IMG/VR virus record: IMGVR_UViG_3300021178_000021
Coordinates: 1-43,255 of that record
Length of the DNA: 43,255 nucleotides
DNA from: a virus
Strand: one strand, 5' to 3'
The position numbers were made by a program, and so were the translations under genes. The notes under the pieces are model-generated. The model did no database searches, had not been told where the DNA came from, and saw only the letters and a list, made by a program, of their open reading frames with translations. Below, piece after piece: positions 12,085 to 39,738 of this stretch; the first letter of the stretch is position 1; each line of letters opens with the position of its first letter.

Positions 12085-12555
12085 ATGAAGCGCCTTTCCG
12101 CCCTCCTCCTCGCCATTCTGCCTGCGCTCGCGCTGCTGTGGTGCCAGCCCGCGCACGCGCAGGCGCCGCTCATCCCGGGCGACAACGTCGGCGGTCGCAT
12201 CACGGTGTCCAACTCGGCGAGCGGCACGACCGCGGCCGTGGTGGCAACGCTGCCGGCGCTCGCCGGGCGCTCGACCTACCTCTGCGGCTTCAGCTATCAG
12301 GGCTCCGACGCCACGGCCGGACAGGTCGGCGTGGTCGCGGTGACCAACGTCACCGGCGGCACGATGAATTTCGCCTACCCGACGCTGGCGCTGGGCGCGA
12401 CGGTTCCGCAGCCTGGTCCGCTGACGGTGACGTTCACGCCATGCCTTGCGGCGACGGCGCAGAACACGACGATTGTGGTCACGGGTCCAGCGCTCGGCGC
12501 CGGCGCGACGGTCGCGACCGTGAACGCCTGGGGCTACCAGTACAGCCAATTCTGA
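12085..12555 (+). CDS. Signal-peptide protein with beta-rich mature part
   Basis: A 156-residue protein. The N-terminus is a clear Sec signal (MKRLSALLLAILPALALL) with an AHA cleavage site after residue 25. The mature part is Thr/Ala/Gly-rich with alternating hydrophobics and two Cys (STYLCGFSYQG, TVTFTPCLAAT), as in small beta-sandwich proteins. It lies between portal and scaffold, where virion genes would be expected, yet it seems destined for export. Possible roles are a surface decoration or a secreted or periplasmic exclusion factor; neither is shown. Confidence 0.75.
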   Translation: MKRLSALLLAILPALALLWCQPAHAQAPLIPGDNVGGRITVSNSASGTTAAVVATLPALAGRSTYLCGFSYQGSDATAGQVGVVAVTNVTGGTMNFAYPTLALGATVPQPGPLTVTFTPCLAATAQNTTIVVTGPALGAGATVATVNAWGYQYSQF

Positions 12556-12563
12556 GTTCGCGT

Positions 12564-12641
12564 GCCGAAGTAGTTTAACTGGATAGAATACCCCGACACG
12601 TACGCGGGGAGATGTGGGTTCGAATCCCACCGTAGGCACCA
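12564..12641 (+). tRNA. Degenerate tRNA, Arg-like, with enlarged anticodon loop
   Basis: The T arm is perfect (GTGGG TTCGAAT CCCAC), CCA is encoded at 12639-12641, and positions 8-26 fit a tRNA (TA, D stem GTTT/GAAT). The acceptor stem GCCGAAG/CGTAGGC has two mismatches. The anticodon stem CCCCG/CGGGG encloses nine bases (ACACGTACG) rather than seven; forcing a 7-base loop gives anticodon ACG with a mismatched stem. The body resembles phage tRNA-Arg genes. It may be a decaying pseudo-tRNA or an unusual loop variant. Confidence 0.7.
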
Positions 12642-12756
12642 AGGTTCGTCCGGCCCACGTCACGGGCCCCGTCTGATCCCACGTCATCGGATCGAAGGCG
12701 CTGCCGGCCTCAACCGGGCACCGTGGCTACGACGTTACCGTGGCGAAGGGACGTAG
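12642..12756. repeat. Spacer with short direct repeats and a hairpin
   Basis: This 115-base stretch between the tRNA and the scaffold gene holds two copies of CCCACGTCA (12654-12662, 12678-12686), two of ACCGTGGC (12720-12727, 12737-12744) and a GGCCC/GGGCC hairpin (12652-12668). No promoter is evident. The pattern could be processing or regulatory sites near the tRNA end. Confidence 0.35.
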
Positions 12757-13695
12757 ATGGCACGCGAAGACGAACTGAGCGAGCAGGATCTCAAGGACGC
12801 GATGGCCGCGACCGAACAGGAGATTGCGGACGAAGCGTTCAACGACGAACCCCTCGAAAATGATGGCGATCGTTCTCTGGAGGAAATGGAGGACGAAACC
12901 GAAGGCGAAGAGCCCCAAGAGGGCGACGAGCCGGAGGAAGCCGAGGCCGAGGGGGACGAAGAAGGTGGCGAGGACGATGCCGACGACGAAGCTGAGGAAC
13001 TGCCGCAGGCGGCAGAACCTCCCGCAAGAGACCCGCGCACGGTTGCGCTCCGCGAGGAGCGGGGTCGCCGGCAGGCGCTCGAGCGGCAGCTGGCCGAGCT
13101 ACAGGGCAGGCTGGCGGAACGTCAGGCGATTGACCAGCCAAAGCCTCAGGCAACCGAGAAGCCTGCAAAGCCCGATATGTTCGCCGACCCGGAGGGATGG
13201 GAAAAAGCCACTCGGGCGGAAATCCTGGCCGAGGCCAACAAGCTCATCAACGATCAGCGCACGGCGGTCGTGGACGAGAGCATGGCCGAGGCCAAGGCGA
13301 AACACGGCGATGTGTTCGATGCCGCGTATCAGGCCCTCATCGACGGCAAGAACGACCCCGCCACGTTTGCGGCCGGTCGGCGTATCCTTGCCTCTCGCGA
13401 TCCGGGGGAGGCCCTGATGAAGTGGCATCAGCAGCAGCAGGTCGTGCGCGACATCGGGAATGACCCGCTCGCCTATCGTGAGAAGCTCAAGCAGGAAATC
13501 ATGGCCGAGCTGAACGTACGGCCCGGCCGAGCGCGTGCCAGCGCAGAACGTCCGCAAAACGTCATTCAACCGGCGCGGCGAATGCCGAGCCTGAACGGAA
13601 CGGCGGGCGGTTCATCCCATCGCGGTGCGAGGGACCCGAATGGCCTCGACGATTCCCAGGAAGCATTCAACGCGTTCGCATTTGGAGATCGCTAG
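12757..13695 (+). CDS. Scaffolding protein
   Basis: A 312-residue protein with the make-up of a phage scaffold. It has a strongly acidic N-terminal third (residues about 20-80, nearly all Glu/Asp/Gly), then a coiled coil (LREERGRRQALERQLAEL), a helical core (EKATRAEILAEANKLINDQR, ALMKWHQQQQVVRDIG), and a basic C-terminus (RPGRARASAERP) of the type that binds coat protein. It lies immediately before the capsid gene and has AAGGG seven bases before its ATG. It would direct prohead assembly and then leave the head. Confidence 0.85.
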   Translation: MAREDELSEQDLKDAMAATEQEIADEAFNDEPLENDGDRSLEEMEDETEGEEPQEGDEPEEAEAEGDEEGGEDDADDEAEELPQAAEPPARDPRTVALREERGRRQALERQLAELQGRLAERQAIDQPKPQATEKPAKPDMFADPEGWEKATRAEILAEANKLINDQRTAVVDESMAEAKAKHGDVFDAAYQALIDGKNDPATFAAGRRILASRDPGEALMKWHQQQQVVRDIGNDPLAYREKLKQEIMAELNVRPGRARASAERPQNVIQPARRMPSLNGTAGGSSHRGARDPNGLDDSQEAFNAFAFGDR

Positions 13696-13748
13696 TTTCA
13701 TCTCAGCGCCGCAGTTGAGATTAGCCGCGACCAGAAAGGGTCACGGCT

Positions 13749-14894
13749 ATGGCCGTTACGACAGTCCAAGCCCAAAATAAACTGATCGTTTTCCGGAAGG
13801 AAGTCTATCGGGAATACGTCCGCCAGAATCTGTTCGCGCCCTATGTCGGGACCGAGCTGACGGCGGTCATTCGCGTCATCAATGATCTCAAGAAGGGCGG
13901 CGAGCAGATCAACATTCCGCTCATCGCCCGGCTGAAGGATCAGGCGATCTCGACCGGCCCGCTGGTCGGCAACGAAGAGGCGATCGACAACTTCGGCGAT
14001 CGCATGTGGATCGATTGGGCGCGCAACGCCGTCATCATCCAGAAGTCGGAAGAGCAGCGTTCGTCCATCGACCTGTTCGGGCAGGCGCGGCCGCTGCTGG
14101 AAGACTGGGGCAAAGAGCTTCAGCGCAACGAGATCGTGGACGCGTTCTACGCGATCCCGCTCAACAACACGGCACCCGTCGGCCTTTCGTCCACCTTCGG
14201 CCAGCGCGTCAACGGCGCCCTGTTCGATGCCGCGACGGCCGCTCAGCGCAACACGTGGATGGCGGATCAGTCTGACCGTGTTCTGGTCGGCGGAGCCACC
14301 GCGCTCTACTCGGCGACGTTCGCCACCGCGATGGGCAACATCACGGCCGGCATGACGTTCTCGGCTGCCATGGCAAACAAGGCAAAGCGTCTCGCCAAGC
14401 TCGCCAACCCGCGCATCCGGCCCTACAAGCTCAAGAACGGCCGCGAGTACTTCATCGTCTTCCTCAACTCGCTGCACTTCCGCGACCTGCAGGCCGATCC
14501 GACCATCATAAACGCCAACACGCAGGCGCGTGCTCGCGAGGGTGACGGGCTCGACAAGAACCCGCTCTTTCAGGACGGCGATCTGGTATACAACGGCATG
14601 ATCTTCCGGGAAATCCCGGAACTGACCATCCGTCTGCCGGTCACCTACACGACGGCGGGCTCGGGCTCGATCCAGGTCGCGCCGGCGTTCTTCTGCGGCC
14701 AGGGCGCTATGGCCTGGGCGTGGGGAAGGATGCCGCGGCCGACGTTTCGCAAGGAGGACGACTATCAGTTCATCCGCGGCGTCGGCATCGAGATGGCGTA
14801 CGGCATGAAGAAGATCGCCAAGCTCAACCCCAGTGGTAACTATAGGGAGTGGGGAATTTTCACCATCTTCGCAGCGGCGCAGGCCGACACCTAA
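13749..14894 (+). CDS. Major capsid protein, DUF4043/N4 gp56-like
   Basis: A 381-residue protein that follows the scaffold gene and has AGAAAGGG upstream. Sequence features such as VYREYVRQNLFAPYVGTEL, EQINIPLIARLKDQAI, DRMWIDWARNAVIIQKSEEQ and a C-terminal FFCGQGAMAWAWG resemble the DUF4043/N4-gp56 capsid group of the HK97 fold. The assignment rests on these and on position. It would be the most abundant virion protein, and a terminator-like hairpin follows it. Confidence 0.85.
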   Translation: MAVTTVQAQNKLIVFRKEVYREYVRQNLFAPYVGTELTAVIRVINDLKKGGEQINIPLIARLKDQAISTGPLVGNEEAIDNFGDRMWIDWARNAVIIQKSEEQRSSIDLFGQARPLLEDWGKELQRNEIVDAFYAIPLNNTAPVGLSSTFGQRVNGALFDAATAAQRNTWMADQSDRVLVGGATALYSATFATAMGNITAGMTFSAAMANKAKRLAKLANPRIRPYKLKNGREYFIVFLNSLHFRDLQADPTIINANTQARAREGDGLDKNPLFQDGDLVYNGMIFREIPELTIRLPVTYTTAGSGSIQVAPAFFCGQGAMAWAWGRMPRPTFRKEDDYQFIRGVGIEMAYGMKKIAKLNPSGNYREWGIFTIFAAAQADT

Positions 14895-14909
14895 CAGCGG
14901 TGCAAGCTG

Positions 14910-14937
14910 ATGGGGCGCCAATGCCCCATCTTCTTCC
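14910..14937 (+). terminator. Hairpin after the capsid gene
   Basis: A perfect 7-bp stem (ATGGGGC/GCCCCAT, arms 14910-14916 and 14923-14929) with a 6-base loop is followed by the T-rich CTTCTT. Such partial terminators often follow capsid genes and lower expression of downstream genes. Confidence 0.5.
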
Positions 14938-14961
14938 CCCTCAACAGAAAGGACATCTCTC

Positions 14962-15540
14962 ATGCGCAAGTTCTGGCGCAATCTTCCGGGGGCCTTGGCT
15001 GCCGGTCTCTTCCTGCTCGCCGCGCTATCGCCCGGCATTGTGCAGGCACAGGCGCCGACCACGACGCAGTTCGCGCCGCGGCAGTTCGGCACCCAGCAGA
15101 CGCACTACATCCGGTTCGGCTTCCAGCTTACGTCATGCACGATCGTCTCCAACACGTGCGTGGTGAAGGTCGGCGCCGTTCCCTACAACTCGGTGATCTG
15201 GCGTATCTCGGTGTCGACCAACACCGCGTTCAACTCGGTGACCAACGATCTGATATCGTTCGGCACCAACACGACCGGCACCAACATCGTGGCCGCCGGT
15301 TGCGTGATGCACGCGCAGGGCCTCACGGCCTGCACCGTGCTGGCGACCGCATCGAGTGTCACCGGCAACGGTGCGACGCAGACCGGCCTCGACGGCGGCT
15401 TCGACATCTTCATGGTGTACGTGTCGTCAGGCGGCGCGGCCACGACCGGCAATGCCACCATCCTGATCGAGTATTCGCCCGCCAACGATGGCGCAACGTG
15501 CGCCAATGTGCCGTTCGGCTCGACCGCAGTGGGCTGCTGA
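14962..15540 (+). CDS. Signal-peptide protein with beta-rich mature part
   Basis: A 192-residue protein directly after the capsid gene, with AAAGGA upstream. The N-terminus is basic then hydrophobic (MRKFWRNLPGALAAGLFLLA) with a VQA cleavage site after residue 29. The mature part is Thr/Asn/Gly-rich with six Cys (SCTIVSNTCVVKV, AAGCVMHAQGLTACTV, further Cys near the end), suggesting disulfides and so an extracytoplasmic location. In this position one expects a head decoration protein, so the export signal is odd. Function unknown. Confidence 0.75.
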   Translation: MRKFWRNLPGALAAGLFLLAALSPGIVQAQAPTTTQFAPRQFGTQQTHYIRFGFQLTSCTIVSNTCVVKVGAVPYNSVIWRISVSTNTAFNSVTNDLISFGTNTTGTNIVAAGCVMHAQGLTACTVLATASSVTGNGATQTGLDGGFDIFMVYVSSGGAATTGNATILIEYSPANDGATCANVPFGSTAVGC

Positions 15541-15637
15541 GCTACTCGGCGCGAGTGCTGCTCAACGCCGAGTTGATGTGCCGGGGCGGGGGTTATAGCC
15601 GCTCAACCGCTCCGGCACTGACCAGAAGGGACAAACG

Positions 15638-16042
15638 ATGACGCAAGCCAGAAACTATGCCTGCCTGCAGACCTTCGGGTTTCTCGGTATGGCGCAGACC
15701 GATAATCTGTCGGCGCTCAACGCCGCTTCGCAGACTACGGCAACGCGCCTCAACAGCAAGATTTGCCGGGTGGTGACGTCGGTTTCGACCGGATCGGTGA
15801 TTCTGCCCCAGCAGTTGACCGGAGAGAATGGGCCGGCGCCCGTGATCGTGATCAACGACAGTCCGAACTCGATCAACCTGTATCCGGCCGCTGGCGAGAC
15901 AATCAACGCACTGTCGGCCAACACGGCGTTCGCCGTGCCCTCATTGCAGACGGCGGTGTGCATCCCCAACGATGTCCCGCCTCCGCATGGCGGCGTGGCG
16001 ACCGGCAGCAACCTGAATTGGGGCGTTGCCAATATTCCGTGA
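15638..16042 (+). CDS. Putative decoration-like beta-rich protein
   Basis: A 134-residue protein without a signal peptide; GAAGGG lies upstream. The sequence (VIVINDSPNSINLYPAAGET then INALSANTAFAVPSLQTAVC) resembles small beta proteins often encoded next to phage capsid genes, where a repeated pattern about N-x-L-Y-P-A-G occurs. Virion decoration is the likely role, by position and composition only. Confidence 0.65.
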   Translation: MTQARNYACLQTFGFLGMAQTDNLSALNAASQTTATRLNSKICRVVTSVSTGSVILPQQLTGENGPAPVIVINDSPNSINLYPAAGETINALSANTAFAVPSLQTAVCIPNDVPPPHGGVATGSNLNWGVANIP

Positions 16043-16064
16043 CTTCAACGAAGGAGCAGCAGCA

Positions 16065-16472
16065 ATGACGAAAATCACCTACGTGCCCCAGGACGAGGAC
16101 GACAAGAACGTTTGCGAGATGTGGGGAGACCCCGAACGGCGCATTCCGCCGATCCGGTTTCTGGCAAATGTCCCGGTCGAGGTCGACGACGCCCGGTCGG
16201 TCGAGGTCGAGGAATCCAAGCGCTCGATCGCCGATGACGGCTCATTCCGCCTCGTGCCGATCAGGAAGCGCATTCCGATCAAGGTGCTTGCCGAGGGCAA
16301 TCCGCAGTTCCATGTCGAGGGCGGTGCGCCGAAGAAACGCGGCCCCGGCCGCCCGCGCAAGGCGCTCACCGCCGGCGAGGAGCTCGGCGTCGATGTGCCG
16401 GTCGGCGATCTCGACAAGTATGAGCAGTCGCTCGATCCGTCCGACGACAATTACTCGCCTGAGGCCGCGTGA
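16065..16472 (+). CDS. Hypothetical protein with AT-hook-like motif
   Basis: A 135-residue acidic protein with AAGGAG nine bases before the ATG. Near residues 88-98 it carries KKRGPGRPRKA, which has the GRPRK core of an AT-hook that binds the minor groove of AT-rich DNA. The rest shows no domain. It sits between capsid-region and head-completion genes, so it could contact packaged DNA. GTGA overlap with the next gene. Confidence 0.65.
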   Translation: MTKITYVPQDEDDKNVCEMWGDPERRIPPIRFLANVPVEVDDARSVEVEESKRSIADDGSFRLVPIRKRIPIKVLAEGNPQFHVEGGAPKKRGPGRPRKALTAGEELGVDVPVGDLDKYEQSLDPSDDNYSPEAA

Positions 16473-16849
16473 GCCAATACCGCACCAGCGCCGACCTGAT
16501 AAACGAGGCGCTAGCAAACCTCGGGGTGCTGTCGGCGGGTCAGATCACGGACCCCGAGGATTACAACTACGTTCTGGAGAAGCTTGACGCCATCATGCGC
16601 AAGCTCTCCGCGCTCGACATCGTCAACGTGTCGGATGTGAACAACATCCCCGGCGCGTGGTTCTCTGATCTGGCCGACATCGTGGCGGGAGAATGCGCCA
16701 CCAAATTTGGCGCCACGCCCGACGACGTGACCAAGCTGGTCGGACGCGGGCTCGGCGATCCACCCGGCACCGGGTCTGCCGCCAAGTCGCTGAAGCAGCA
16801 GCTCCGCGGCAAGCCGACATTCGAGCGCCTCCGCGTCGAGTATTTCTGA
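16469..16849 (+). CDS. Head-to-tail adaptor, P22 gp4-like
   Basis: A 126-residue helical protein. The N-terminus (TSADLINEALANLGVLSAG then DAIMRKLSALDI) resembles the P22 tail accessory factor gp4, which binds under the portal. Position fits: it directly precedes a gp10-like gene, as in P22. GTG start in a GTGA overlap; the stop overlaps the next ATG (TGATG). Confidence 0.75.
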   Translation: MSQYRTSADLINEALANLGVLSAGQITDPEDYNYVLEKLDAIMRKLSALDIVNVSDVNNIPGAWFSDLADIVAGECATKFGATPDDVTKLVGRGLGDPPGTGSAAKSLKQQLRGKPTFERLRVEYF

Positions 16850-18588
16850 TGCCGACCCGCGGGCCACTTCCCATCCCATTCCCCCTGAGCTCGTTTCCGG
16901 GCGCCTCGGCACATCCGGGATCGAACAATCAGGAGGGGGCGGGGCGCCTTGTCAATTGCTATGCCGAGCCCTTGGGCGAAGCGACCACGCCGACCGGGCC
17001 ATCCAAGCAGGTGTGGCGGCGCTCGCCGGGCCTCTCGCAGCACAACAATGCGCCGACCGGACAGAGCGGCTACCGCGGCGGACTGATCGTCAACAACCTC
17101 AGCTATGAGTGCTGGTCGGGCAATGCCTCGACGCTCGATGTGGCCGGCAATTATGTGAGTCTTGGCGCATTCCCCGGCACCAAGAAGGTGTCGATCGCGC
17201 GCAATCAGGCGGCAAGCCCGAACGTGGTGGCGGTCGATCCTGACAACGGCGCCTACGTGCTCTCGGGCGGCGGGGCACCGGCATTTTACAACGGCGGCGG
17301 CAACCTCCCACAGCCGAACAGCGTGTGCTTTCAGGACGGATACTTCTTCTACACGATCGGCGACAACCGATGTTTTGCCTCGCCGCTCAACTCGGTCGGC
17401 ACGATCAACACACAGACCTTCATCACCGCGCAGGCGAAGTCCGACGTGAACCTGTTGCGCGGCATCGCCTATGGCGGCCTCCTCTGGCTGTTCACGACCG
17501 GTCATTGCGAAATCTGGCAGGACACCGCGGTAGCCGCACCAGCATTCCCCTACACGCGGCTGCTCGTGATCGAGTACGGCCTTGTCCAGCAGGCGGCGAT
17601 TGCCGGGTGGGAGACGGGATTCAGCGAATTGCTCTGGGCCGCGCAGGATTTCGGCGTTTACTGGGCCACGCCGGGATCGTTCCAGCCGATCAAGGTCTCG
17701 AGCCCGGACATCGAGAAGCTCATCGAGCAGCAGGTGCGCGCCGGCAACACGCTGGAGGCATCGGTCTACGCCTTCGCGGGCAAGAAATTCTGGGTGCTGT
17801 CCTCGCCGGCATGGACCTGGGAATTCAACATCTCGACGAAGAAGTGGAACGAGCGGTCGAGCCTTGCGGGTGGCGCGTACGGCCGCTGGCGGGCGACCGG
17901 CGGCCATCCGGCGTTCAACAAGTGGCTGATGGGCGACACGCAGACCGGCAACCTGTTTTGGTTGGACAACTCGAATTATACGGAGAACGGCGCGCCGCAG
18001 CTTTTCCGTATCGAGAGCGGGCCGGTACGCGACTTTCCCAACTCGATCAGGATTGCGCGCGCCGATTTTGACTTCGTGATGGGCGTCGGCACCAACGTGG
18101 CCAATACGATCACAACCGTGCTCGGCGCTGCGGCCAATCCCGGCGGCCTCATCCGGCTGCAGGTCGCCAACACGGCGCAGATGTCGGCCAATGACACCGT
18201 CAACGTGGTGAATGTGCTCGGCACCACCGAGGCGAATGGCGCGTGGCAGATCACCGTGGTTGACCCGACGCACATCGACTTGCAGGCGACCGTGTTTGCG
18301 CATGCCTACGTGTCGGGTGGCCAGGTGACCGACGTGACGGCGCCGAGCGGCCAGGTCGCGCCGACGGTCGCGATCTCGTGCAGCAAGGACGGCGGCTACA
18401 CGTGGGGCAATCCGCTGCTGCGCCAGCTCGGCCAGCAGGGCAAGACCAAGCGCAACCGCGTGAGCGTCAAGAATATGGGCATGTCATCGCCGCTGGGCGA
18501 CCGCTGGCGGCTCGATGTGACAGATCCCGTCTACACGGCCATTCTGGGCGGCACGCAGTCGAGCAATCCGGCCGAGGTGGGTGCCTGA
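16849..18588 (+). CDS. DNA stabilisation protein, P22 gp10-like, with inserted beta domain
   Basis: A 579-residue beta-propeller-like tail hub protein. Family marks are the N-terminal NCYAEPLGE and WRRSPGLSQHNN, repeats such as VCFQDGYFFYTIGDNRCFAS, and GLVQQAAIAGWETGFSELL followed by WAAQDFGVYWA, as in Phage_stabilise proteins that close the head after packaging. Residues about 420-494 (LIRLQVANTAQMSANDTVNV, GAWQITVVDPTHIDLQA) look like an inserted E1_FCCH-type beta domain found in many phage tail proteins. Start in a TGATG overlap. Confidence 0.82.
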   Translation: MPTRGPLPIPFPLSSFPGASAHPGSNNQEGAGRLVNCYAEPLGEATTPTGPSKQVWRRSPGLSQHNNAPTGQSGYRGGLIVNNLSYECWSGNASTLDVAGNYVSLGAFPGTKKVSIARNQAASPNVVAVDPDNGAYVLSGGGAPAFYNGGGNLPQPNSVCFQDGYFFYTIGDNRCFASPLNSVGTINTQTFITAQAKSDVNLLRGIAYGGLLWLFTTGHCEIWQDTAVAAPAFPYTRLLVIEYGLVQQAAIAGWETGFSELLWAAQDFGVYWATPGSFQPIKVSSPDIEKLIEQQVRAGNTLEASVYAFAGKKFWVLSSPAWTWEFNISTKKWNERSSLAGGAYGRWRATGGHPAFNKWLMGDTQTGNLFWLDNSNYTENGAPQLFRIESGPVRDFPNSIRIARADFDFVMGVGTNVANTITTVLGAAANPGGLIRLQVANTAQMSANDTVNVVNVLGTTEANGAWQITVVDPTHIDLQATVFAHAYVSGGQVTDVTAPSGQVAPTVAISCSKDGGYTWGNPLLRQLGQQGKTKRNRVSVKNMGMSSPLGDRWRLDVTDPVYTAILGGTQSSNPAEVGA

Positions 18589-19717: not shown

Positions 19718-19730
19718 AAGGTACTATGGT

Positions 19731-20393
19731 ATGGGTTTATTCGACATATTTGGCACAGGCGACCAGCAGGCCGCCGCGGCCGCGCAGACCCAGGGCATCA
19801 ACCAGGGCTATGGGCAGCTCTCCAGCCTGTTCAATCAGGGCCAGCAGCAGCTCCAGCAGAATTATACGCAGGGGCTCCAGCCGTTCCAGCAGAACTATCA
19901 GCAGGCTGCCGGCGGCACGCAGCAGCTCGGCAATGCGCTCGGGCTCAACGGCGCGGCCGGCAACGCACAGGCTGTGCAGGGATTCCAGAACAATCCCGGC
20001 TATCAGTTCCAGTTGCAGCAGGGCAACGCCAACATTCTGGCCAACCAGGCGGCGACCGGGCAGTTGAACTCGGGCAAGACCAACCTCGACCTGCAGACCT
20101 ACGGACAGGGCCTCGCCAATCAGGGCTGGAACCAATACGTGCAGAATTTGCAGCCCTACATGGGCGCGGCGAACTCGGCGGCGGGCGGCATCGGTACGCT
20201 GAGCGCCGGCCTCGGCAATCAGTTGAACGCCAACAGTATGGGCCAGGGCAACGCGGCGTACGGTGCGCAGACGAGCATCGGCAACGCAAATGCCAATGCT
20301 GACCTTGCCGGACTGAATGCGTCGGCGAACTCGCTCAACGCGCTCAAGAGCGTCGGCAGTCTCGGCGCCAACCTGTTCGGGATGTTTCGCTGA
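19731..20393 (+). CDS. DNA ejection protein, P22 gp7-like
   Basis: A 220-residue Gln/Asn/Gly-rich protein. The central segment (NNPGYQFQLQQGNANILANQ then TGQLNSGKTNLDLQTYGQGL) matches the pattern of podovirus DNA-transfer proteins that leave the virion with the genome. It is the first of three consecutive ejection-type genes, corresponding to P22 genes 7, 20 and 16. The name is based on composition, motif and order. Confidence 0.75.
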   Translation: MGLFDIFGTGDQQAAAAAQTQGINQGYGQLSSLFNQGQQQLQQNYTQGLQPFQQNYQQAAGGTQQLGNALGLNGAAGNAQAVQGFQNNPGYQFQLQQGNANILANQAATGQLNSGKTNLDLQTYGQGLANQGWNQYVQNLQPYMGAANSAAGGIGTLSAGLGNQLNANSMGQGNAAYGAQTSIGNANANADLAGLNASANSLNALKSVGSLGANLFGMFR

Positions 20394-22003
20394 TGGCCGG
20401 CGCATCTGATTACATGGTCGGCAATGCTCCGGGTGGCGTCTCCTACGCCGCGCCGCTCATGGATTTTTCGTCAATCGGAAATCTCGGCAAGGACTATCAG
20501 CAGGGCCAGCAGTACCAACGCACGCGCGCGCTGCAGACCGCCTTTCAGGATGGTTTGCCGCGCGACCAGAGTGGCAATATCGATATCGGCGCGATGGCCG
20601 ACAAGCTGGCCAAGATCGGTGGTGCCGACGCGGCGCAGAGCCTCATCCCGCAACTGATCAATCAGCAGATCGGGCAGGGCAACGCCAACGTCATCTCGGG
20701 CAATGCGCCGCAGCCGCAGCAGCCCGGCGCGTCGGCACAACCTGCGCCGCAACAGGGGGTCGGTGCACAGCCGCAGCCCGGCCCGGTTGCGCCGCCGATG
20801 CAGCCCTCGTCCAACGAGGCGACCAACCCGACGACGCTGGCGAACGTGGTGCAATCTCAGATCCAGGACCCGGCGGTTGCCGGCCGCGTGATGACCGCGC
20901 TGGCGAGCAAGCTCGGCATCGACCCTGGCAAGCCGGTCGACCCGAACGATCCGACCGTGCAGGCATACATCCGCTCGGCCAATGGTGGTGTCATCCCAAA
21001 CGGGCAGACGGCCGGTGTGCCACCGCAGCAGCAGGCGCAAGCCGCCCCGCAACAGCCCGGCGGCCCGTCGCTCGGCTCGGCCTCCGCGCTCGTGCCGCCG
21101 CAGTATCGCAGCAACCCGCAGGGTTATGTCGACGCGGTCGCCGCGCGTGCGACCCAGGTGGGGCAACTGAATCCCAAGGCTGCCGAGCTTATGATGCAGC
21201 GCATCAAGCCGGTGATGGATGCGATTGCCAAGGACAATGAATTGACGCCGGAGGGCAAGAACGCTCGCGACCCGGCGGTGCTCGGCTTCGAAGCCCAGAA
21301 GGGCATGCAGGCGTCCGACATCAAGCATTCGGAGGCGCTGTTCTCCGGCATCCAATCGCTCGGCAATTCGAGCGCGGGCATGGCCGACAATGTGAAGCTG
21401 CAGAAGGATTTGACCAACAATCCGGATTTCTATTCGGGGCCGGCCGACAAGGCGGCACTGTTCTTGAAGCGCACGGTGCCGTCGCTCGCGGGCTCCGCGG
21501 CGCCGATGGAGCTCTACGCCAAGGTGCTCAACGCCAACATGCTGCACATGGTCGACAATATGAAGGCGGCCGCGCAGGAGATGGGAAGCTCGTCCTCGCG
21601 CATCTTCACGGCGCAAATTCAGCAGATCGAGAAGGCGTCCGGTACGCTCGACAACTCGCCGACGGGGCTGCGCTCGCTTGCCGAGCTGAACGACCGCAGC
21701 CTGAAGCGCAACGTCCAGATCGCCGACTTCGCGACATCCTACAAACAAGGGAAAATGCAGGGGTTGCCACCTGAATTTACCCAGGGCGGTCCGCCCGCAC
21801 GGCCGGGAATGCTTGACGACAATTTCGAGAAGGGTTTGCGCGATTGGATGTCGACCCATCCTGTCCTGACGCCGCAGGAGAGCGCCGACCCGCGCGTGCT
21901 CGGCGCACCGACATTTAAGACACCGCAGGAGGCACACGCCGCTGGGCTGAAGAAAGGCGACCCGGTGCGCACGCCGGACGGAAGGATCGTCTATGCCCCC
22001 TGA
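20393..22003 (+). CDS. Internal virion / ejection protein, gp20-like by position
   Basis: A 536-residue protein starting in a TGATG overlap. The N-terminal third is Gln/Pro/Ala-rich and disordered. The rest is helical (GYVDAVAARATQVGQLNPKA, NMLHMVDNMKAAAQEMG, GLRSLAELNDRSLKRNVQI). It lies between the gp7-like and the 716-residue protein and is probably injected with the DNA. No enzymatic motif is seen. Confidence 0.7.
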   Translation: MAGASDYMVGNAPGGVSYAAPLMDFSSIGNLGKDYQQGQQYQRTRALQTAFQDGLPRDQSGNIDIGAMADKLAKIGGADAAQSLIPQLINQQIGQGNANVISGNAPQPQQPGASAQPAPQQGVGAQPQPGPVAPPMQPSSNEATNPTTLANVVQSQIQDPAVAGRVMTALASKLGIDPGKPVDPNDPTVQAYIRSANGGVIPNGQTAGVPPQQQAQAAPQQPGGPSLGSASALVPPQYRSNPQGYVDAVAARATQVGQLNPKAAELMMQRIKPVMDAIAKDNELTPEGKNARDPAVLGFEAQKGMQASDIKHSEALFSGIQSLGNSSAGMADNVKLQKDLTNNPDFYSGPADKAALFLKRTVPSLAGSAAPMELYAKVLNANMLHMVDNMKAAAQEMGSSSSRIFTAQIQQIEKASGTLDNSPTGLRSLAELNDRSLKRNVQIADFATSYKQGKMQGLPPEFTQGGPPARPGMLDDNFEKGLRDWMSTHPVLTPQESADPRVLGAPTFKTPQEAHAAGLKKGDPVRTPDGRIVYAP

Positions 22004-24143
22004 CGCTGCAACCATCGCGTACGGGACCGGCAATGAGCCGGGGCTACCGCCGATCGACCTGCCGAAGGTCAATTGGGGGCCGCAGCGGCCGACCACGATC
22101 GTCCACCCGTCCGGCTACACGGACAAGCCAACGCCGCCGGCCGACCCGTGGGACGCGGCCGGGTTCACCACCGCGCCGCCGCACGGCACGACCACGCCGG
22201 CCACCGACACGGCGGGCGATCCGTGGTCGGCGGCCGGCTTCACGGCCGAACACCCCGACATGACGCCGGAGCATCCGGTGTCGACCGCGCATGCGGCACT
22301 GACCGGCGCGCTACAGGGGATGACGTTCGGGCTCGCGCCGGCGCTCTCAGGGGCCGCCGATGCGTCCGGGCTGCCTGCCAGCGCCGACATCGTTCCGGGG
22401 CTGCGGCCAATCGTCGGGGCGGCGCGGCTCGCCATGGGCAGCGAGGGCGCCAAGCCGGCCTACGAGAAGGAGCGCGCCGCCGCGCAGGCCGATCTCGAGG
22501 AGGGGCGCGCGCAGCATCCGGTAGCCTCGACCGTCGGCGAGCTGGGCGGCGCCATGATGGTACCCCTGCCAGGCGGCATGGCGGGATCGCTGGGCGCGCG
22601 CATCGCCAAGGGCATTGGCGCGGGGGCGCTAGGCGGCGGCGCCTACGGGGCCGGCTCGGCGATCAGCGAGGGACAGGACGCGTCCGGGGTGGCTACGGCA
22701 GCCGCCGGCGGGGCTGCGCTGGGTGGCGCGGTAGGCGGCCCGCTGGCCGCGGCGCTGGGTCGGGCTCCCGCTGCCGGCCTGACGCGCGGCCAGCGGGCGG
22801 CTGCGACGGCGGAGGGGCTCGAGGCGCCCATCCCGCGCGGGCTCGCGAGCGACAACGCGGCCGTGAACGCCACGACGGCGAAGTCAGCCTCGCTGCCGGT
22901 GCTCGGTTCGCGCATCTCAAGCGCGGTGCAGCGCACCCAGGAGGCGGCGGGCCGGTCGGTCGAGGATATTGCAGCGCAAACCGGCGGCACCGGCGGCCGC
23001 GCGGTGCAGGACGTCATGGCCCGGCACGGGCTGCAGGGCGTCATCGACGCCAACCGGCAGGCGATCGACGCCGGCTATAACGCGCTGCGGGGTCAATTGC
23101 AGGGACGCCACTACACCATGCCGGCGACCGATGCCGCCCTGACCGCAATCATGCAGGCGCGCCACGCCGCCGGCCACGTCAACCCGGCGGCCGGGCTCGA
23201 GCAATTCCGCAACGTGGCAGCAGGAGCAACGTTCAATGGCGCTCATCGGGCTCGTGTCGATGCTCGCGAGGCTGGCAACGTGCTGGTTCCTCATCCTGGC
23301 TATAATGCGGCTGATTTCAACCGGCTGACGCGGGCGATGACGACCGACCTGCGACAGATTGTGCAGCGCGATGCGCGCGGGTCACCGCGGCAGGCATTGA
23401 ATGCCTTCGATCGCGCCGAGGAGAATTTCGGACGCCTGGCGGACCAGAATCTGGATCTGCACCGGTTGGTGAATGCCCGCGGCGAAGGTGCGATTGCGAC
23501 GCTCCTGAATGCCGGCAAGGAGCGCGGCGGCAACCTCCGGCTGCTCGCCCAACTGCGCAATTCCATGCCGCCGGCGCAATTCAAGCAGATCGGCGGGGCG
23601 TTGCTGGCCGAGCTCGGCCACGCTCCGGCGACCGGGGAATTCAGCCTCGCGCGTTTTGTGACCGGGTGGAACAAGCTCTCCCCGCAGGCGCGCGCCGTGA
23701 TGTTCTCGCCGGCCCATCTCGCCCACCTCGACGACATCGTGAGCATGGGTACGCACATCAAATCGGCGCTGAGCGAGCGCAATACCTCGCATACGGCCGG
23801 CGTGCTGGTCATGCTCGATCTGGCGCAGGATGCGCTCAATCTCGGCATGGCAGCAGCGGCCGGCACGATTGGCGGAGCGACCGGAGTGGGGATGGCGGGT
23901 GCGGCAGCCGGAGGCCTATTCGTCCGCTGGCTCGCAAGCCCAGCTCGAGCGGCCGCCATCTCGAATTGGACCCGCGCCTATCGGGCCGTCACGCTCGGGT
24001 CGCCGACGCCGGCCAGGATCGCGGCGTTCCGCATCGCGACCCGCAACCTCTCGTCCAATCTGGGCATTCCGATGGACAAAATCGCCAAGGCCATCCAAGG
24101 TCCGGTAGCAGGCCGCGCCGACCAGCAGGATCAGCAGCAATGA
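21993..24143 (+). CDS. Internal virion / ejection protein, gp16-like by position
   Basis: A 716-residue protein overlapping the previous gene by 11 bases. The N-terminus has proline-rich repeats with a duplicated DPW[D/S]AAGFT motif. Residues about 185-250 are a glycine-rich hydrophobic stretch (GGMAGSLGARIAKGIGAGAL then GGGAYGAGSAIS) that could insert in a membrane. The rest is long helices, with another hydrophobic segment near residue 620. This fits a protein that forms a channel across the host envelope during DNA entry. Confidence 0.72.
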   Translation: MPPDAATIAYGTGNEPGLPPIDLPKVNWGPQRPTTIVHPSGYTDKPTPPADPWDAAGFTTAPPHGTTTPATDTAGDPWSAAGFTAEHPDMTPEHPVSTAHAALTGALQGMTFGLAPALSGAADASGLPASADIVPGLRPIVGAARLAMGSEGAKPAYEKERAAAQADLEEGRAQHPVASTVGELGGAMMVPLPGGMAGSLGARIAKGIGAGALGGGAYGAGSAISEGQDASGVATAAAGGAALGGAVGGPLAAALGRAPAAGLTRGQRAAATAEGLEAPIPRGLASDNAAVNATTAKSASLPVLGSRISSAVQRTQEAAGRSVEDIAAQTGGTGGRAVQDVMARHGLQGVIDANRQAIDAGYNALRGQLQGRHYTMPATDAALTAIMQARHAAGHVNPAAGLEQFRNVAAGATFNGAHRARVDAREAGNVLVPHPGYNAADFNRLTRAMTTDLRQIVQRDARGSPRQALNAFDRAEENFGRLADQNLDLHRLVNARGEGAIATLLNAGKERGGNLRLLAQLRNSMPPAQFKQIGGALLAELGHAPATGEFSLARFVTGWNKLSPQARAVMFSPAHLAHLDDIVSMGTHIKSALSERNTSHTAGVLVMLDLAQDALNLGMAAAAGTIGGATGVGMAGAAAGGLFVRWLASPARAAAISNWTRAYRAVTLGSPTPARIAAFRIATRNLSSNLGIPMDKIAKAIQGPVAGRADQQDQQQ

Positions 24144-25225
24144 CCAGGGGTATTCAACGCATGTCCAGATGGCGAGCGCGCATAGCAGCAGCGGCATTGG
24201 CTCTCCTGTCATCGCCCGCTCTCGCGGCCGGAACACTCCCTCTCGCACTGCAACAACAATTCAGCTTTACCAACTGTCAGACCGGCTCGAACGCGTGCGG
24301 CGTGCCGCTGATCGGCGGCCTGCTCTATTTCTATCAGGCTGGCACGGTCGCGACGAGACAGGACAGCTTTCAGGACACCGCGCTCTCGATCGCCAACCCC
24401 TGGCCGCTGCCGCTCGACGCCAATGCGCGCGTGCCAATTTTCTATCTCGCCGACGGCAGTATTCACGTCCGCCTGACCGACTCGGGTGGCGTGGTCCAGT
24501 ACGATGCCACCGTGCTGGTGATCGGCCCGAGCTCTGGCGGCGGCAGCGGGGCGGTGGTCGACCCGACCACAATTGCGGCAACCGGCGATGTGAAATTCCG
24601 GCCGACGTCGGAAGTCCTGACCGGATGGGTTAAGCTCAACGGCCTGACCATCGGCTCAGCCACTTCCGGCGCGACTGGGCGGGCGAATGCCGACACGCAG
24701 GCGCTCTTCATTTATCTGTGGACAAGCTGCGATAATACGCATTGTCACGTACCCGGCGGGCGCGGGGCGACCGGCCTCGCTGATTTCACCGCCAACAAGC
24801 AATTGTCGCTGCCGGACTGGCGTGGCCGCATCGCGGTTGGCCTCGACGACATGGGCGCCGGAGCGGCTACGCGGCTGTCACAGGCGACCTTCAGTGGCGC
24901 TGACACATCGACCACGCCGGGCGGCAATGGCGGCGAGAGCGGGCACTTTCAGAATCAGGGGCAGTTGCCGGCGATCAATCTCAGCTCGGCATTCCTGACA
25001 GCGTCGACCGCCATCATCGGGCAGGCCGGGACGGGGGTCGTGACCAATCCGAGCAACTTCACGGTGGCGGGCGGCGGCGTTCCGATCACTGCCGGGGCCA
25101 CCTCAGGACAATGGGTGACGCTGTCGGCCACAACAGGCATTGGCGGCATCATCCCGCTCGGCTCGGGTCAGGCGTTCAATGTGATGAATCCCTTTACCCT
25201 CGGTAGCTGGTACGAAAAACTCTGA
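24140..25225 (+). CDS. Tail fibre / collar-domain protein with signal peptide
   Basis: A 361-residue protein in an ATGA overlap; an ATG seven codons later is possible. The N-terminus looks like a Sec signal (RWRARIAAAALALLSSPALA, cleavage after residue 29). A neck domain follows (GGLLYFYQAGTVATRQDSFQ, typical of phage fibres), then a phage tail collar domain about residues 155-240 (GWVKLNGLTIGSATSGATGR and LSLPDWRGRIAVGLDDMGAG). It probably contributes to host recognition; the export signal on a tail protein is unusual. Confidence 0.82.
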   Translation: MTRGIQRMSRWRARIAAAALALLSSPALAAGTLPLALQQQFSFTNCQTGSNACGVPLIGGLLYFYQAGTVATRQDSFQDTALSIANPWPLPLDANARVPIFYLADGSIHVRLTDSGGVVQYDATVLVIGPSSGGGSGAVVDPTTIAATGDVKFRPTSEVLTGWVKLNGLTIGSATSGATGRANADTQALFIYLWTSCDNTHCHVPGGRGATGLADFTANKQLSLPDWRGRIAVGLDDMGAGAATRLSQATFSGADTSTTPGGNGGESGHFQNQGQLPAINLSSAFLTASTAIIGQAGTGVVTNPSNFTVAGGGVPITAGATSGQWVTLSATTGIGGIIPLGSGQAFNVMNPFTLGSWYEKL

Positions 25226-25935
25226 TGTATCAGAATCCCGTTCTCCTCCCGCAGCAGTCCAACCGCGAGGATTTCATCCTCACGGTGGCGATCTGTGATG
25301 ACGACTCGGCGGGGCCGGGACAATCGCCCACCACGATCAACATTGACGGCACGTCGCGCGCCGCGCCGGGGCCGTTCACGTCGGCGGCGTGGACCGTGGT
25401 GGACGGACAGATCACGACAACGTCGGCAACATCGATCACCATTCCGGATTACCCCATCGGGTCGCAGCTCTCCGCGCTTGCCCTGACGGTCGGCGTCGGC
25501 CTCAATATCCAGCCTGGCGATTTTGTCGTTATCTCCGACACCGGCACCGGCCTCAACACGATGACCGGCTACGTGCAGAGCTACGGCGCCAACTCGGGCG
25601 CGCTGGTCGTGCAGATCGGTTTCACGTTCCAGTTCGAGATCAGGCGCGGACCACCGCACAACAACAGCGACTATCTGTCGTTCTACGACTGGGGCGGCAT
25701 CGGCGATGATAGTCCGATTCTATCCGTCTCGCTCGGGGCCGGTATCACGCATATCGGCGTCGGCGTGATCCAGATTTTCATCACGGAGGCGACGTTCAAG
25801 ACGATATCCAACGGCATGCGGCGACAGCCCGGCGTCGGAACGTTCAACGTTGGTCTCACCATGACGGACACCCAGAACACGCGGCAATTGTTCATCGGCA
25901 CGCTTCCAGTGTTCTTCGGCAATGTGAGCAACTAA
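25225..25935 (+). CDS. Hypothetical tail-region beta protein
   Basis: A 236-residue product starting in a TGATG overlap. Beta-rich, Thr/Gly/Ile-rich (SATSITIPDYPIGSQLSALA, NIQPGDFVVISDTGTGLNT, ALVVQIGFTFQFEIRRGPP). It lies between two fibre-like genes and is likely a tail or fibre accessory. No recognised family and no signal peptide. Confidence 0.65.
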   Translation: MYQNPVLLPQQSNREDFILTVAICDDDSAGPGQSPTTINIDGTSRAAPGPFTSAAWTVVDGQITTTSATSITIPDYPIGSQLSALALTVGVGLNIQPGDFVVISDTGTGLNTMTGYVQSYGANSGALVVQIGFTFQFEIRRGPPHNNSDYLSFYDWGGIGDDSPILSVSLGAGITHIGVGVIQIFITEATFKTISNGMRRQPGVGTFNVGLTMTDTQNTRQLFIGTLPVFFGNVSN

Positions 25936-25936
25936 A

Positions 25937-26482
25937 ATGGCCCTTCCCGTCGCCTTGCGCGTGATGCCTCAGGTCCCGTTCCCGGCGCTCGTCACCGGCT
26001 CAGGGCCTGTGCGTGTCGGCAAGTCGGCGACCGGAGTGTGGACGATCTCATTCGACATCGTCGATCTAGGATTGCAGATCCCGTCTCCTGGCAACTACGC
26101 CAACGAGTACGTCATCGTTTACGACGCGGTGGCCAAGAACTTCTTCCGGCTTAGCCTTGCGACGATTGCCAGCCTGGGTGGGGGGGCGAAGTCTCAGCGA
26201 TCCGTGACGGCATCCCCCATCGTGATTGCCGCGACAGACATACAGTTGAACGTCAACATATCGACCGGGTCGCCGACCTGCGCCATTCCGCTCGCTGCAT
26301 CGCGCAATGGCGTGCCGCTCACGTTCAAGGATGTCGGCGGCCAGTTCAGCGCGCACAACCTGACGCTCACCTTCACCGACACGATTGAGGGAGGGGCCGG
26401 GCCGCTCGTGCTCGGCGCCAACCGGCAGGAACTAACAATCACGCCGTTCAACGACGGCGTCAATTCAGGATGGTTCATCTGA
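25937..26482 (+). CDS. Hypothetical tail-region beta protein
   Basis: A 181-residue product two bases after the previous stop. It contains GVWTISFDIVDLGLQIPSPG and YVIVYDAVAKNFFRLSLA, then a Thr/Asn-rich beta half (LTFTDTIEGGAGPLVLGANR). Such arrangements are seen in phage fibre accessory proteins, but no family is certain. TGATG overlap with the large fibre gene. Confidence 0.65.
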   Translation: MALPVALRVMPQVPFPALVTGSGPVRVGKSATGVWTISFDIVDLGLQIPSPGNYANEYVIVYDAVAKNFFRLSLATIASLGGGAKSQRSVTASPIVIAATDIQLNVNISTGSPTCAIPLAASRNGVPLTFKDVGGQFSAHNLTLTFTDTIEGGAGPLVLGANRQELTITPFNDGVNSGWFI

Positions 26483-29160
26483 TGCGCAAATACCTCATTG
26501 CCCTGCTGGCTCTGCTGGCAGTCTATTTCCCGGCGCTGGCGCAGACCTATCCACCGGTTGTGGCATCGCAGGTGTTTGGTGGCACTGGTCCGACGTCGAC
26601 CCTCACCCTGGGGAGCACGACCTTCGCCTCCAACATCAGCAACACGGACGGGATCAACGTTCTCACCTCGAACGGCCTGACCATCAACCTGAACACGACG
26701 ACAGGTGTGGGCGGTAATCCGTGGGAGTTTTTGGGGGTCAACACCAAGCTGGATACATGGGGACATATATTTGTTACGGGAGGATCAGCACAGACGTCGC
26801 CGGACGGATTTGGTTGCAACAATCCATACGGTACGCCCAATCAGCCGGCTACGACCGCGATTATCAGCAGCCTGTGCGCCACTGAGAACGGCAAGACCGC
26901 AAATGTAACGTTCACCAATGGCTCGCCAGTGATTGCGTGGGTTGGTAATGGAGCTTCAGCCGGAACCCTGGTGTCTTTTTACACCACGGGAACGCTACCA
27001 TCTGGATTTAGTGTCGGTGCGTCATATTGCGTTATTGCGACTGGTCTCGGAGCAAATCAGGTAGAGGTTAGTGCCACCTGCGGCGGTGGTGCGATCACAG
27101 CCGGCAGCGCCGGCACTGGCACGCAATCGATCGCCGCCAATATTTCCGGCGTGACGCAGTACAGCAATGAGCTATCGGTACAGGACTTCGTTTTGGTTCC
27201 TGGCCTTGACATTAATGCAGGGGCGTTCACCACAAGCTCCTATGTCGATGGCTCCGGCGGCTCGGGCGTCATCGGCGTTGGTCACGCGTGGCGAGCAAAT
27301 GCGGTGGCATATGGCGCTGAGATCGCCGCCAACTGCCACACGGGCGGCATTCCGTGTACGCAGAACATCGCGTTGCAGCTTGAATGCGGCGGCGACACCA
27401 CATCGCAATGCACCGCCTACCTCAACATGTTTTCCGGTGCCGCGGGAGACAGTCCGCTGCACGCCATCCGATTCGGGTACGGTCCGACGACCAACCCTGT
27501 GCAGGGTCTCGGCACAGGTTCTACGCTTATCGACGTCGCCGGTTCATGGGTTCAGGCGGACTACGGCATCCATCTGGTTGGCATGACCCTGGGGATCAAT
27601 GCTTACGATAGTCCGGGTTTTTCCGTTTCGGCGGCCGGCGTAGGCGCATTCGGCAACCCTACTGCAGGGCAGCAGGGCAAGATATTCCTGCTCGGCGCCA
27701 CCAGTGGAACGGCAACGCTTGCGGCGTCGGCGACCGGCGGCTTTCTCGGACTCAATGATCTCGCGGCCGACAGCCTACTGACCGTCAACGCCAACACAGG
27801 CTCTACGGTCGCGCCACGCACCGGAACAAATTTGCATGTTACCGGGGCAGATACCGCTACCAATACTCTGTCTTTGGATAGTTTCGGTGGGCTGAACGCC
27901 ATTTCATCCCGGCGGTCAGACGGCACGCGTGCAAGCAAGACGGCGCTCGCCACCAGCGATGCTCTCGCATCGTTTACGGGTGAAGGCTACGACGGCACGG
28001 CGTACACGTCGGGCGGAGCGGTTGCAATCAACTTCACCGCGTCTCAGACGTGGACGAATGCCGCGCACGGCACATACATCAATATGTTCACCGTGCCGAA
28101 CGGCACGACGACGCTGACCGAGGCGATGCGCATCCAAAACAGCGGCGGCGTCAGTATCGGCACGACAACCGATCCTGGCATTGGAAATTTGTTGGCGAAC
28201 GTCGCGGTGCAATCGCCAAAACTGACGCTGATTGGATCGGGCAGCGGGACGGTGTCTCTCACGCCATCGGCGACGGGAGGCCTTTTGGGCGTCAACGACA
28301 CTGCGCCGGATTCCTTGCTGACCGTGAATGCCAACAGCGGAACTACTGTCGCCCCCGTGGCCGGCACCAATCTCCATGTCACGGGGGCGGACAGCGCGGT
28401 GAACAACGTCCTGCTGGACGCGTTCGGAACGGCAGGCACAAACTTCAATCAGATTTCCTGCCGCTATGCCGGAGGCACGCGCGCCAGCAAAACCGCTGCC
28501 GCCAACGGTGCAACGATCTGTTCGTTTCAGATGTACGGATGGGATGGGTCAACGTACGCTTCTCAGGGTATCGTCAATTTCAACACGTCTCAGCTATGGG
28601 CGCCTGGGGCGCATGGTCTCACATCCATATTCTACACCACACCGAACGGAACGACCTCGCCGGCCATTTCCCTGCAACTGCAGAACAGCGGCGGCGTGAC
28701 GATCGGGGCAAGCGGTACCGATCCAGGCATCGGCGGCCTGCAGGTAGGAACGCAGGTCTTTGTCCCCAACATCACGACGACGTCCGTGGCGCAGACCGGT
28801 ACCGTCTGCTGGACCACTGGCACCGGCAAGTTCACGGTGGACACCACGGTGGCGTGTCTTGCTTCGTCGGAGCGGTTCAAGAATGTCATCGGGGCGGTCA
28901 GTCCGCAGGAGGCGCTCGACATCACGTCGAAGCTGCGCCCGGTGCGGTTCACCCGCAAGGCAGAGTTCGGCGGCGATGCCGACCCATCGGAGCAGTTTGG
29001 CCTGTCAGCCGAGCAGGCGGCGTCGGTCGATGAGCGGCTGATTGCCCGGGACGATAGCGGGCTGCCGAAGGGGGTGCGATACATGGAGTTCACGTCGGTT
29101 CTCGCGGGCGCCATCCAGGCGCTCAAGGGTGAGATCGACGAACTGAAGAGGACCAAATGA
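26482..29160 (+). CDS. Tail fibre/spike with signal peptide and S74 chaperone domain
   Basis: An 892-residue fibre. The N-terminus is a signal peptide (MRKYLIALLALLAVYFPALA, cleavage after residue 20). A long Gly/Thr/Asn-rich beta region follows, with two related units of about 175 residues (about 404-575 and 581-755), each containing ADSLLTVNAN or PDSLLTVNAN, GTNLHVTGAD and TRASKTA. The last 100 residues are an intramolecular chaperone of the Peptidase_S74 type: SSERFKNVI at 795-803 with the Ser/Lys pair (S795 or S796 and K800), then LRPVRF and FGLSAEQ. The chaperone would trim itself off after trimerisation. Confidence 0.88.
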   Translation: MRKYLIALLALLAVYFPALAQTYPPVVASQVFGGTGPTSTLTLGSTTFASNISNTDGINVLTSNGLTINLNTTTGVGGNPWEFLGVNTKLDTWGHIFVTGGSAQTSPDGFGCNNPYGTPNQPATTAIISSLCATENGKTANVTFTNGSPVIAWVGNGASAGTLVSFYTTGTLPSGFSVGASYCVIATGLGANQVEVSATCGGGAITAGSAGTGTQSIAANISGVTQYSNELSVQDFVLVPGLDINAGAFTTSSYVDGSGGSGVIGVGHAWRANAVAYGAEIAANCHTGGIPCTQNIALQLECGGDTTSQCTAYLNMFSGAAGDSPLHAIRFGYGPTTNPVQGLGTGSTLIDVAGSWVQADYGIHLVGMTLGINAYDSPGFSVSAAGVGAFGNPTAGQQGKIFLLGATSGTATLAASATGGFLGLNDLAADSLLTVNANTGSTVAPRTGTNLHVTGADTATNTLSLDSFGGLNAISSRRSDGTRASKTALATSDALASFTGEGYDGTAYTSGGAVAINFTASQTWTNAAHGTYINMFTVPNGTTTLTEAMRIQNSGGVSIGTTTDPGIGNLLANVAVQSPKLTLIGSGSGTVSLTPSATGGLLGVNDTAPDSLLTVNANSGTTVAPVAGTNLHVTGADSAVNNVLLDAFGTAGTNFNQISCRYAGGTRASKTAAANGATICSFQMYGWDGSTYASQGIVNFNTSQLWAPGAHGLTSIFYTTPNGTTSPAISLQLQNSGGVTIGASGTDPGIGGLQVGTQVFVPNITTTSVAQTGTVCWTTGTGKFTVDTTVACLASSERFKNVIGAVSPQEALDITSKLRPVRFTRKAEFGGDADPSEQFGLSAEQAASVDERLIARDDSGLPKGVRYMEFTSVLAGAIQALKGEIDELKRTK

Positions 29161-29390
29161 TCCGCACCTTCGTCATTGGCTTTCTGCTAGGCATGTGTGG
29201 CCCCGCGAGCGCGCAGGTCGCGCAACCCGAGCAATCCCCCCAGGTTCAGGCCATGTCGGCAGAGCTTCTGCAGCAGATCGGCGCCAAGCTAGTGTGCAGC
29301 GGCAACCTGATCGCCGTGCAGAAGGAGCTCGCCGCCGCACAGGCGCAGATCAAGACGCTGACGCCCCCGCCCGCCGAGCCGGCCAAATGA
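29157..29390 (+). CDS. Small exported protein with coiled-coil-like C-terminus
   Basis: A 77-residue protein in an ATGA overlap. Signal peptide MIRTFVIGFLLGMCGPASA with cleavage likely after residue 19; the Cys is not in a proper lipobox. The mature part has one Cys (LVCSGN) and a helix (LIAVQKELAAAQAQIKTL). Placed between the fibre and the endolysin, it might be a spanin-like or periplasmic lysis factor, but this is a guess. Confidence 0.65.
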   Translation: MIRTFVIGFLLGMCGPASAQVAQPEQSPQVQAMSAELLQQIGAKLVCSGNLIAVQKELAAAQAQIKTLTPPPAEPAK

Positions 29391-39613: not shown

Positions 39614-39738
39614 AAAGAATAACCGCCTATCGTGTCATATTTTTGTTTGATTATAACCCCAACACAGGAAGTCTAATTTGGAAAAATCGTCCCAATCGCC
39701 GAATAGTGATTGGATCAATCGCCGGATGGGCGTCATGA
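39610..39738 (+). pseudogene. HNH endonuclease remnant (42 codons)
   Basis: The ATG overlaps the previous stop and the TGA overlaps the clamp start (ATGA at both ends). The product contains FLFDYNPNTGSLIWKNR and GSIAGW, the N-terminal signature of phage HNH endonucleases (L-x-Y-D-P-x-T-G-x-L-x-W...AG), but it stops before the GY segment and the whole catalytic HNH core. The stretch is clearly more AT-rich than its neighbours, as expected for a selfish homing endonuclease that has been deleted. It may still be translated as a coupling peptide. Confidence 0.6.

Follow-up and report, generated by a model that had tools for sequence, protein, structure and literature searches.

The late module of IMG/VR virus record IMGVR_UViG_3300021178_000021 (43,255 bases, analysed at full length and referred to here as the window) is P22-like and encodes five proteins with predicted Sec signal peptides, among them a capsid cement protein and a fibre with a tailspike-type head-binding domain. 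The textbook view is that assembly of tailed phages takes place entirely in the cytoplasm. The best explanation of these leaders, and probably the right one, is that outer proteins of the virion are exported, fold and become oxidised in the periplasm, and at lysis attach to particles built in the cytoplasm. We also favour, a little less firmly, the broader view that in this lineage the virion is finished outside the cytoplasm, with the cement and the adsorption fibres self-assembling at or after lysis, and that this route arose in the common ancestor of a single clade, whose hosts are Alphaproteobacteria.

An earlier reading of the sequence (hereafter the original prediction) had proposed that five products of the virion module carry Sec signal peptides. 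All five open reading frames (ORFs) are present, with ATG start codons at 12085, 14962, 24140, 26482 and 29157, and each product has a basic start, a hydrophobic core and an A-x-A site, the leader being 19–29 residues long. The predicted signal peptides are as follows, a slash marking the cleavage site:

12085–12162, + strand: signal peptide of SP1, MKRLSALLLAILPALALLWCQPAHA/Q, 26 aa, AHA/Q, score 8.4; leader of at least 6.3 in 15 of 16 orthologues scored
14962–15048, + strand: signal peptide of the cement protein, MRKFWRNLPGALAAGLFLLAALSPGIVQA/Q, 29 aa, VQA/Q, score 7.7; 33 of 36 orthologues, one clade
24140–24226, + strand: signal peptide of the collar/tailspike-type fibre, MTRGIQRMSRWRARIAAAALALLSSPALA/A, 29 aa, ALA/A, score 8.9
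26482–26541, + strand: signal peptide of the S74 fibre, MRKYLIALLALLAVYFPALA/Q, 20 aa, ALA/Q, score 9.1, the top of 305 listed ORFs
29157–29213, + strand: signal peptide of SP5, MIRTFVIGFLLGMCGPASA/Q, 19 aa, ASA/Q, score 6.9

Leaders were scored with a self-written n/h/c-region scorer calibrated on 24 exported controls from Escherichia coli (5.5–8.8), and the five scores (6.9–9.1) lie within or just above that range. Four of the five leaders rank among the best scorers of the 305 window ORFs; the fifth (24140) begins inside a longer ORF. Whole-protein shuffles reached the score of the leader in 0–2 of 2000 cases, or 11 of 2000 for SP5, whose leader is the weakest of the five. For SP1 the top choice of the scorer itself was cleavage at residue 16, yet AHA/Q agrees with the alignment. 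No lipobox or twin-arginine motif was found in the five leaders. Together with recurrence in relatives, described below, these features bear out the original prediction: all five proteins carry convincing predicted leaders for Sec and signal peptidase I, and export of the leader-bearing proteins is well supported.

To follow the leaders beyond the window we used about 90 contigs from relatives, fetched through their capsid and collar proteins, and counted a leader at a score of at least 6.3. Orthologues at the same slots bear leaders in 58 of 67 cases for SP1, the cement and the collar fibre together (10 of 15 for the collar fibre), as against none of 336 orthologues in 13 other late-module families. 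A recount based on gene models gave one leader among 234 core genes, and we take this single hit to be a mislabelled fragment in contig L014, marked MCP(53). Leaders are confined to proteins expected on the outer surface, and inner and neck proteins never have them. Orthologues came from scans with the major capsid protein (MCP) and the collar protein; when viral contigs were scanned for close relatives with the 12085, 14962 or 26482 protein alone, there was no match. That the leaders reflect chance or wrong gene starts is scarcely credible: Ala- and Leu-rich products of GC-rich genes can mimic leaders, and a few other window ORFs score as high, but the contrast between the three families and the controls, the shuffles, and conservation over the MCP clade already contradict it.

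On a tree built from 86 MCPs, the leader-bearing cements form one clade of 40 rows (Shimodaira–Hasegawa-like approximate likelihood ratio test (SH-aLRT) 99). The minimum on this tree is three leader changes, and the history of the cement leader can be read as about one gain and two losses, one in L058/G003, which lack the leader on both cement and collar, and the other in contig L008, which lacks the slot gene. The leaderless sisters of the clade occur as prophages in Rhizobiales and other Alphaproteobacteria, and further leaderless cements come from the Bradyrhizobium family (12) and Rhizobium phage RHph_Y1_10. The original prediction held that homologues lacking the N-terminal segment would count against it. 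Such homologues exist (L096–L105, RHph_Y1_10, Pam1 and Pam5), but almost all lie outside the clade, where members of the cement family have 0–2 Cys, and this speaks in favour of export within the clade, not against it.

Where the leader is missing, the protein begins where the leader ends. Leaderless collars in L006 and L098 have the first residues M-AGT and M-AGS, exactly at the end of the leader in the window (SPALA/AGT), and leaderless cements start within a few residues of the cleavage site, so the leader is a bolt-on. A different reading, that the hydrophobic N-terminus stays uncleaved and serves as an arm to dock on the capsid or touch a membrane, draws on the N-terminal arms that contact the capsid in some cements (Pam1 and KHP30; PMC9698820). 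We consider it improbable, since a basic start, a hydrophobic core and an A-x-A site are common to unrelated proteins here, and since an arm leaves unexplained both the boundary with leaderless orthologues and the cysteine parity set out below.

The mature 14962 product and the MCP encoded before it are as follows:

15049–15537, + strand: mature capsid cement protein (predicted), 163 aa, six Cys, Ig/jelly-roll type, from its AlphaFold2 (AF2) model, Foldseek and slot
13749–14894, + strand: MCP, without signal peptide (PF13252, E 6e-43; phrog_334), the landmark for the tree

The window has the gene order portal–scaffold–MCP–14962, and the slot directly downstream of the MCP gene is annotated as cement in phages Pam1 and Pam5. 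An AF2 model of the mature 14962 product (predicted local distance difference test (pLDDT) 80) had as its top four Foldseek matches in the PDB the cements of Pam1, GP4, KHP30 and KHP40 (7eel_H, E 7.5e-4; 8h89_J; 7dn2; 7dou), all with probability 1.00 and with moderate TM-scores of about 0.5. A PDB sequence search with the cement profile returned only noise. Across 50 loci, one of them the whole window, no locus has a cement-like ORF other than the 14962-type gene, so that no source of cement besides the exported copy was seen. By its slot, the PDB matches of its model and its being the sole cement gene found, the 14962 product is assigned as the capsid cement protein. Two other assignments were rejected: a Rz-like spanin (PHROG match, E 0.06), dropped after the structural result, and the adjoining 15638 product as a replacement cement, which is not cement-like and has no significant PDB match:

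15638–16042, + strand: small leaderless protein adjoining the cement, leader in 0 of 25 orthologues, AF2 pLDDT 86

The collar fibre has these parts:

24227–25222, + strand: mature collar fibre, 332 aa, four Cys (phrog_8763, tail protein, E 2e-31)
about 24263–24500, + strand: tailspike head-binding domain, the N-terminal part of the mature collar fibre (profile A3 against 7eeq)

An hmmsearch with profile A3 matched 7eeq, the head-binding domain of the Pam1 tailspike (E 8.4e-12), and 9vyg (E 1e-11). The 24140 product consists of a leader, a head-binding domain straight after the cleavage site, and then a collar-type part. Because cement and head-binding fibre both have leaders, it is virion-attachment parts that would be exported. 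The ATG of 24140 overlaps the stop of the preceding gene (ATGA), and 26482 and 29157 likewise overlap upstream late genes, so that the three are expected to be expressed with the virion operon. The claim that two of the five are fibre-like, with collar and S74 domains, was correct. Their common placing in a virion module was right for 14962 and 24140 and likely right for 26482; it is unproven for 12085, and 29157 is probably not a virion protein. The original prediction did not recognise 14962 as the cement, the leaders as a trait of a clade with leaderless sister lineages, or 29157 as a probable lysis-region protein.

The cysteines of the exported proteins follow a pattern of their own. Among mature exported proteins that contain Cys the count is even in 61 of 62, including all 20 exported Cys-containing SP1 orthologues. 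A first set of leaderless cements has none (six), one (six) or two (one), plus a truncated row with four, and 12 more prophage cements, all leaderless, have 0–1. As the rows are related, these counts are not independent, and counts made on the tree are the safer form: the exported cement shows six changes in Cys number and no change in parity, compared with ten and seven for the leaderless cement, 13 and seven for MCP, 12 and ten for Ad3, 12 and six for head closure, and 13 and seven for portal. Cysteines that are gained and lost two at a time, as disulfides, would be expected to behave in this way.

Paired cysteines also bear on the possibility of a dual supply, in which a fraction of each protein escapes export, because Sec targeting is slow or weak or because translation can also start close to the site, and joins the virion in the cytoplasm, the exported pool being a by-product or having a second role. 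Some orthologues do have an in-frame GTG or TTG codon close to the site, and 23 of 37 cements have a start codon of some kind there. Near-site ATG codons are rare, however (four of 37 cements, one of 11 collars and one of 21 SP1), and no start codon lies near the site in 12085, 24140 or 29157 of the window. The leaders score as strongly as the E. coli controls, and the paired Cys suggest that the mature form resides in an oxidising compartment. We regard a dual supply as unlikely.

Exported proteins could instead act on the producing cell, coating its periplasm or surface, blocking receptors against rival phages or processing exopolysaccharide. Phage-encoded exclusion proteins are often exported, and export itself favours such a role. 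Between the portal and MCP genes of relatives a leader occurs on 25 of 63 other genes, as against four of 100 upstream of the portal gene, and the exported extra genes there include a pectate-lyase-type spike (L041) and an SGNH esterase (L094), which would suit a cell-directed role of fibres and esterase. A capsid cement and a head-binding domain have no evident use on the cell, though, no second cement gene is present to serve the capsid, and three of the five genes overlap late virion genes. A role in lysogens is weakened by the lack of any tyrosine or serine integrase match in the window record, which may be incomplete. Coating of the periplasm against rival phages, one of two roles that the original prediction had offered, has no positive evidence and is at odds with a capsid cement. 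We judge a cell-directed role to be doubtful, if a shade less so than a dual supply.

The best supported of the options is the other role offered, in which the proteins join virions only once lysis has occurred, given that cement and head-binding fibre would both be exported and that their leaders look functional from the paired Cys, the bolt-on boundary and clade-wide conservation; we infer the actual export, cleavage, disulfide formation, incorporation into the virion and post-lysis timing. Under this assembly in two compartments, the portal, scaffold, capsid, neck and ejection proteins would be made and assembled in the cytoplasm as usual. The capsid cement, the head-binding collar fibre, the S74 fibre and probably SP1 would be made with Sec signal peptides and exported, signal peptidase I would cleave them, and folding and disulfide bonding would take place in the periplasm. 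Lysis would then mix the compartments, and the exported parts would dock on DNA-filled particles. SP5 would be exported too, with a role more likely in lysis. The P22 tailspike is likewise added last, a step that also takes place in vitro, and the S74 chaperone works without ATP. Docking at a late stage is physically plausible, since completed P22 capsids bind the decoration protein Dec in vitro (PMC6449081; PMC7602432).

Several observations weigh against assembly in two compartments. Leaderless cement and collar proteins serve related phages well, some members of the clade lack one leader or both (both in G003/L058; the collar leader in L006/G001), and g25225 and g25937, two other genes of the fibre cassette, bear no leader. 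The scorer used for signal peptides is self-written, the structural matches of the cement rest on TM-scores near 0.5, and parity has exceptions in the L095 collar and the G001 cement, each with three Cys. A search of the phage collection with MCP or cement found no cultured isolate of the clade. Bradyrhizobium sp. YR681, which is cultured, carries clade member L094, and this makes the idea testable.

The phages concerned are a short-tailed, soil-type lineage, and the cement and head-binding fibres belong to known families; the leader is the new part. Like the cements of Pam1 and Pam5 (and of GP4, KHP30 and KHP40), the window's cement has an Ig/jelly-roll type fold, and its gene follows MCP as in Pam1 and Pam5, but those two have no signal peptide, whereas in the window a Sec leader precedes the cement, which has six Cys. 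The collar fibre resembles the Pam1-type tailspike (7eeq) and the Pam5 tail fibre in joining a head-binding domain to a collar-type C-terminal part, and differs in that its head-binding domain follows a signal peptide and contains an additional C-x6-C loop. Decoration proteins that are added late, such as phage L Dec and T4 Soc and Hoc, attach to the outer face of the completed capsid and do so in vitro as well (PMC6449081; PMC7602432), but are made in the cytoplasm. Cleavable Sec leaders are described for phage proteins that carry out or control lysis, T4 RI and signal-peptide endolysins (PMC8385771; PMC8951688); their target is the envelope, and they do not form part of the virion. In the open-access literature we found no phage paper linking a signal peptide to a cement protein on the virion and no such assembly route; the words signal, secret- and periplasm are absent from a review of decoration proteins, and a paper on gene-transfer agents makes no mention of exported parts.

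If this is correct, the export of capsid cement and fibres by the Sec machinery would amount to a new route of assembly. It would explain how a phage comes to use disulfide-stabilised outer parts, and would suggest a means by which coats and fibres could be exchanged between co-released particles in a lysate. For annotators, signal peptides in late genes need not signify cargo for lysogenic conversion.

The remaining exported products and other landmarks of the late module are these:

12163–12552, + strand: mature SP1, 130 aa, two Cys (alignment A4), unnamed family, gene between portal and scaffold
26542–29157, + strand: mature S74 fibre, 872 aa (892 residues with leader), 12 Cys
28864–29028, + strand: S74 intramolecular chaperone, C-terminal in the 26482 fibre (PF13884, residues 795–849, E 1e-4)
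29214–29387, + strand: mature SP5, 58 aa, short coiled-coil/proline-rich, between the S74 fibre and the putative endolysin
start 6614: terminase gene
start 10019: portal gene (phrog_156)
start 12757: scaffold gene
start 16469: adaptor gene
start 16849: head closure gene (phrog_578)
19731–24143: ejection protein genes, followed by fibre genes
start 29392: putative endolysin

The PF13884 match of 26482 (22.7 bits) exceeds the curated cut-off of 22, and the product is likely a virion protein. SP1 had no Pfam or PHROG match and is a probable virion-surface or periplasmic protein; weak profile matches to TolB and others were not used. The ATG of SP5 overlaps the stop of the S74 gene, and the same slot in L002 and L006 holds small exported proteins of similar make-up. 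No lipobox surrounds the cysteine of the SP5 leader (FLLGMCGPASAQ) that would make it a lipoprotein of the o-spanin Rz1 type; SP5 is probably a small periplasmic, lysis-related (spanin-like) protein and not a part of the virion.

In relatives, the portal–scaffold region resembles a cargo bay, with a varying set of exported proteins of up to ~1080 aa, some of them spike-like (L041:6693–8852, L043, L015, L021–L030), and in L041–L043 it also holds g25225 and g25937. The SGNH esterase of Bradyrhizobium sp. YR681 (L094:6647–8227; phrog_8480) lies in the late module and has distant homologues in Mesorhizobium and Rhizobium phages. In G003, the phage without cement and collar leaders, one exported protein bears a Tat-like leader, MIVTRRKLLRIAAPALILPKTALA, and its gene stands amid Sec-type fibre genes (5565–6347 of L138, the reverse complement of G003:1–20000). 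A second, distant capsid lineage occurs in the Bradyrhizobium family (L145–L154), its MCP 22–26% identical where scored; its cement is leaderless and of the same family, with a gene of 208–213 aa downstream. In the window itself, genes for a DnaB-like helicase and a sliding clamp are present, the latter a phage-encoded homologue of the DNA polymerase III beta clamp (39678–40829), and a tRNA-Thr (CGT) gene lies at 12564–12641, inside the late module between the SP1 and scaffold genes.

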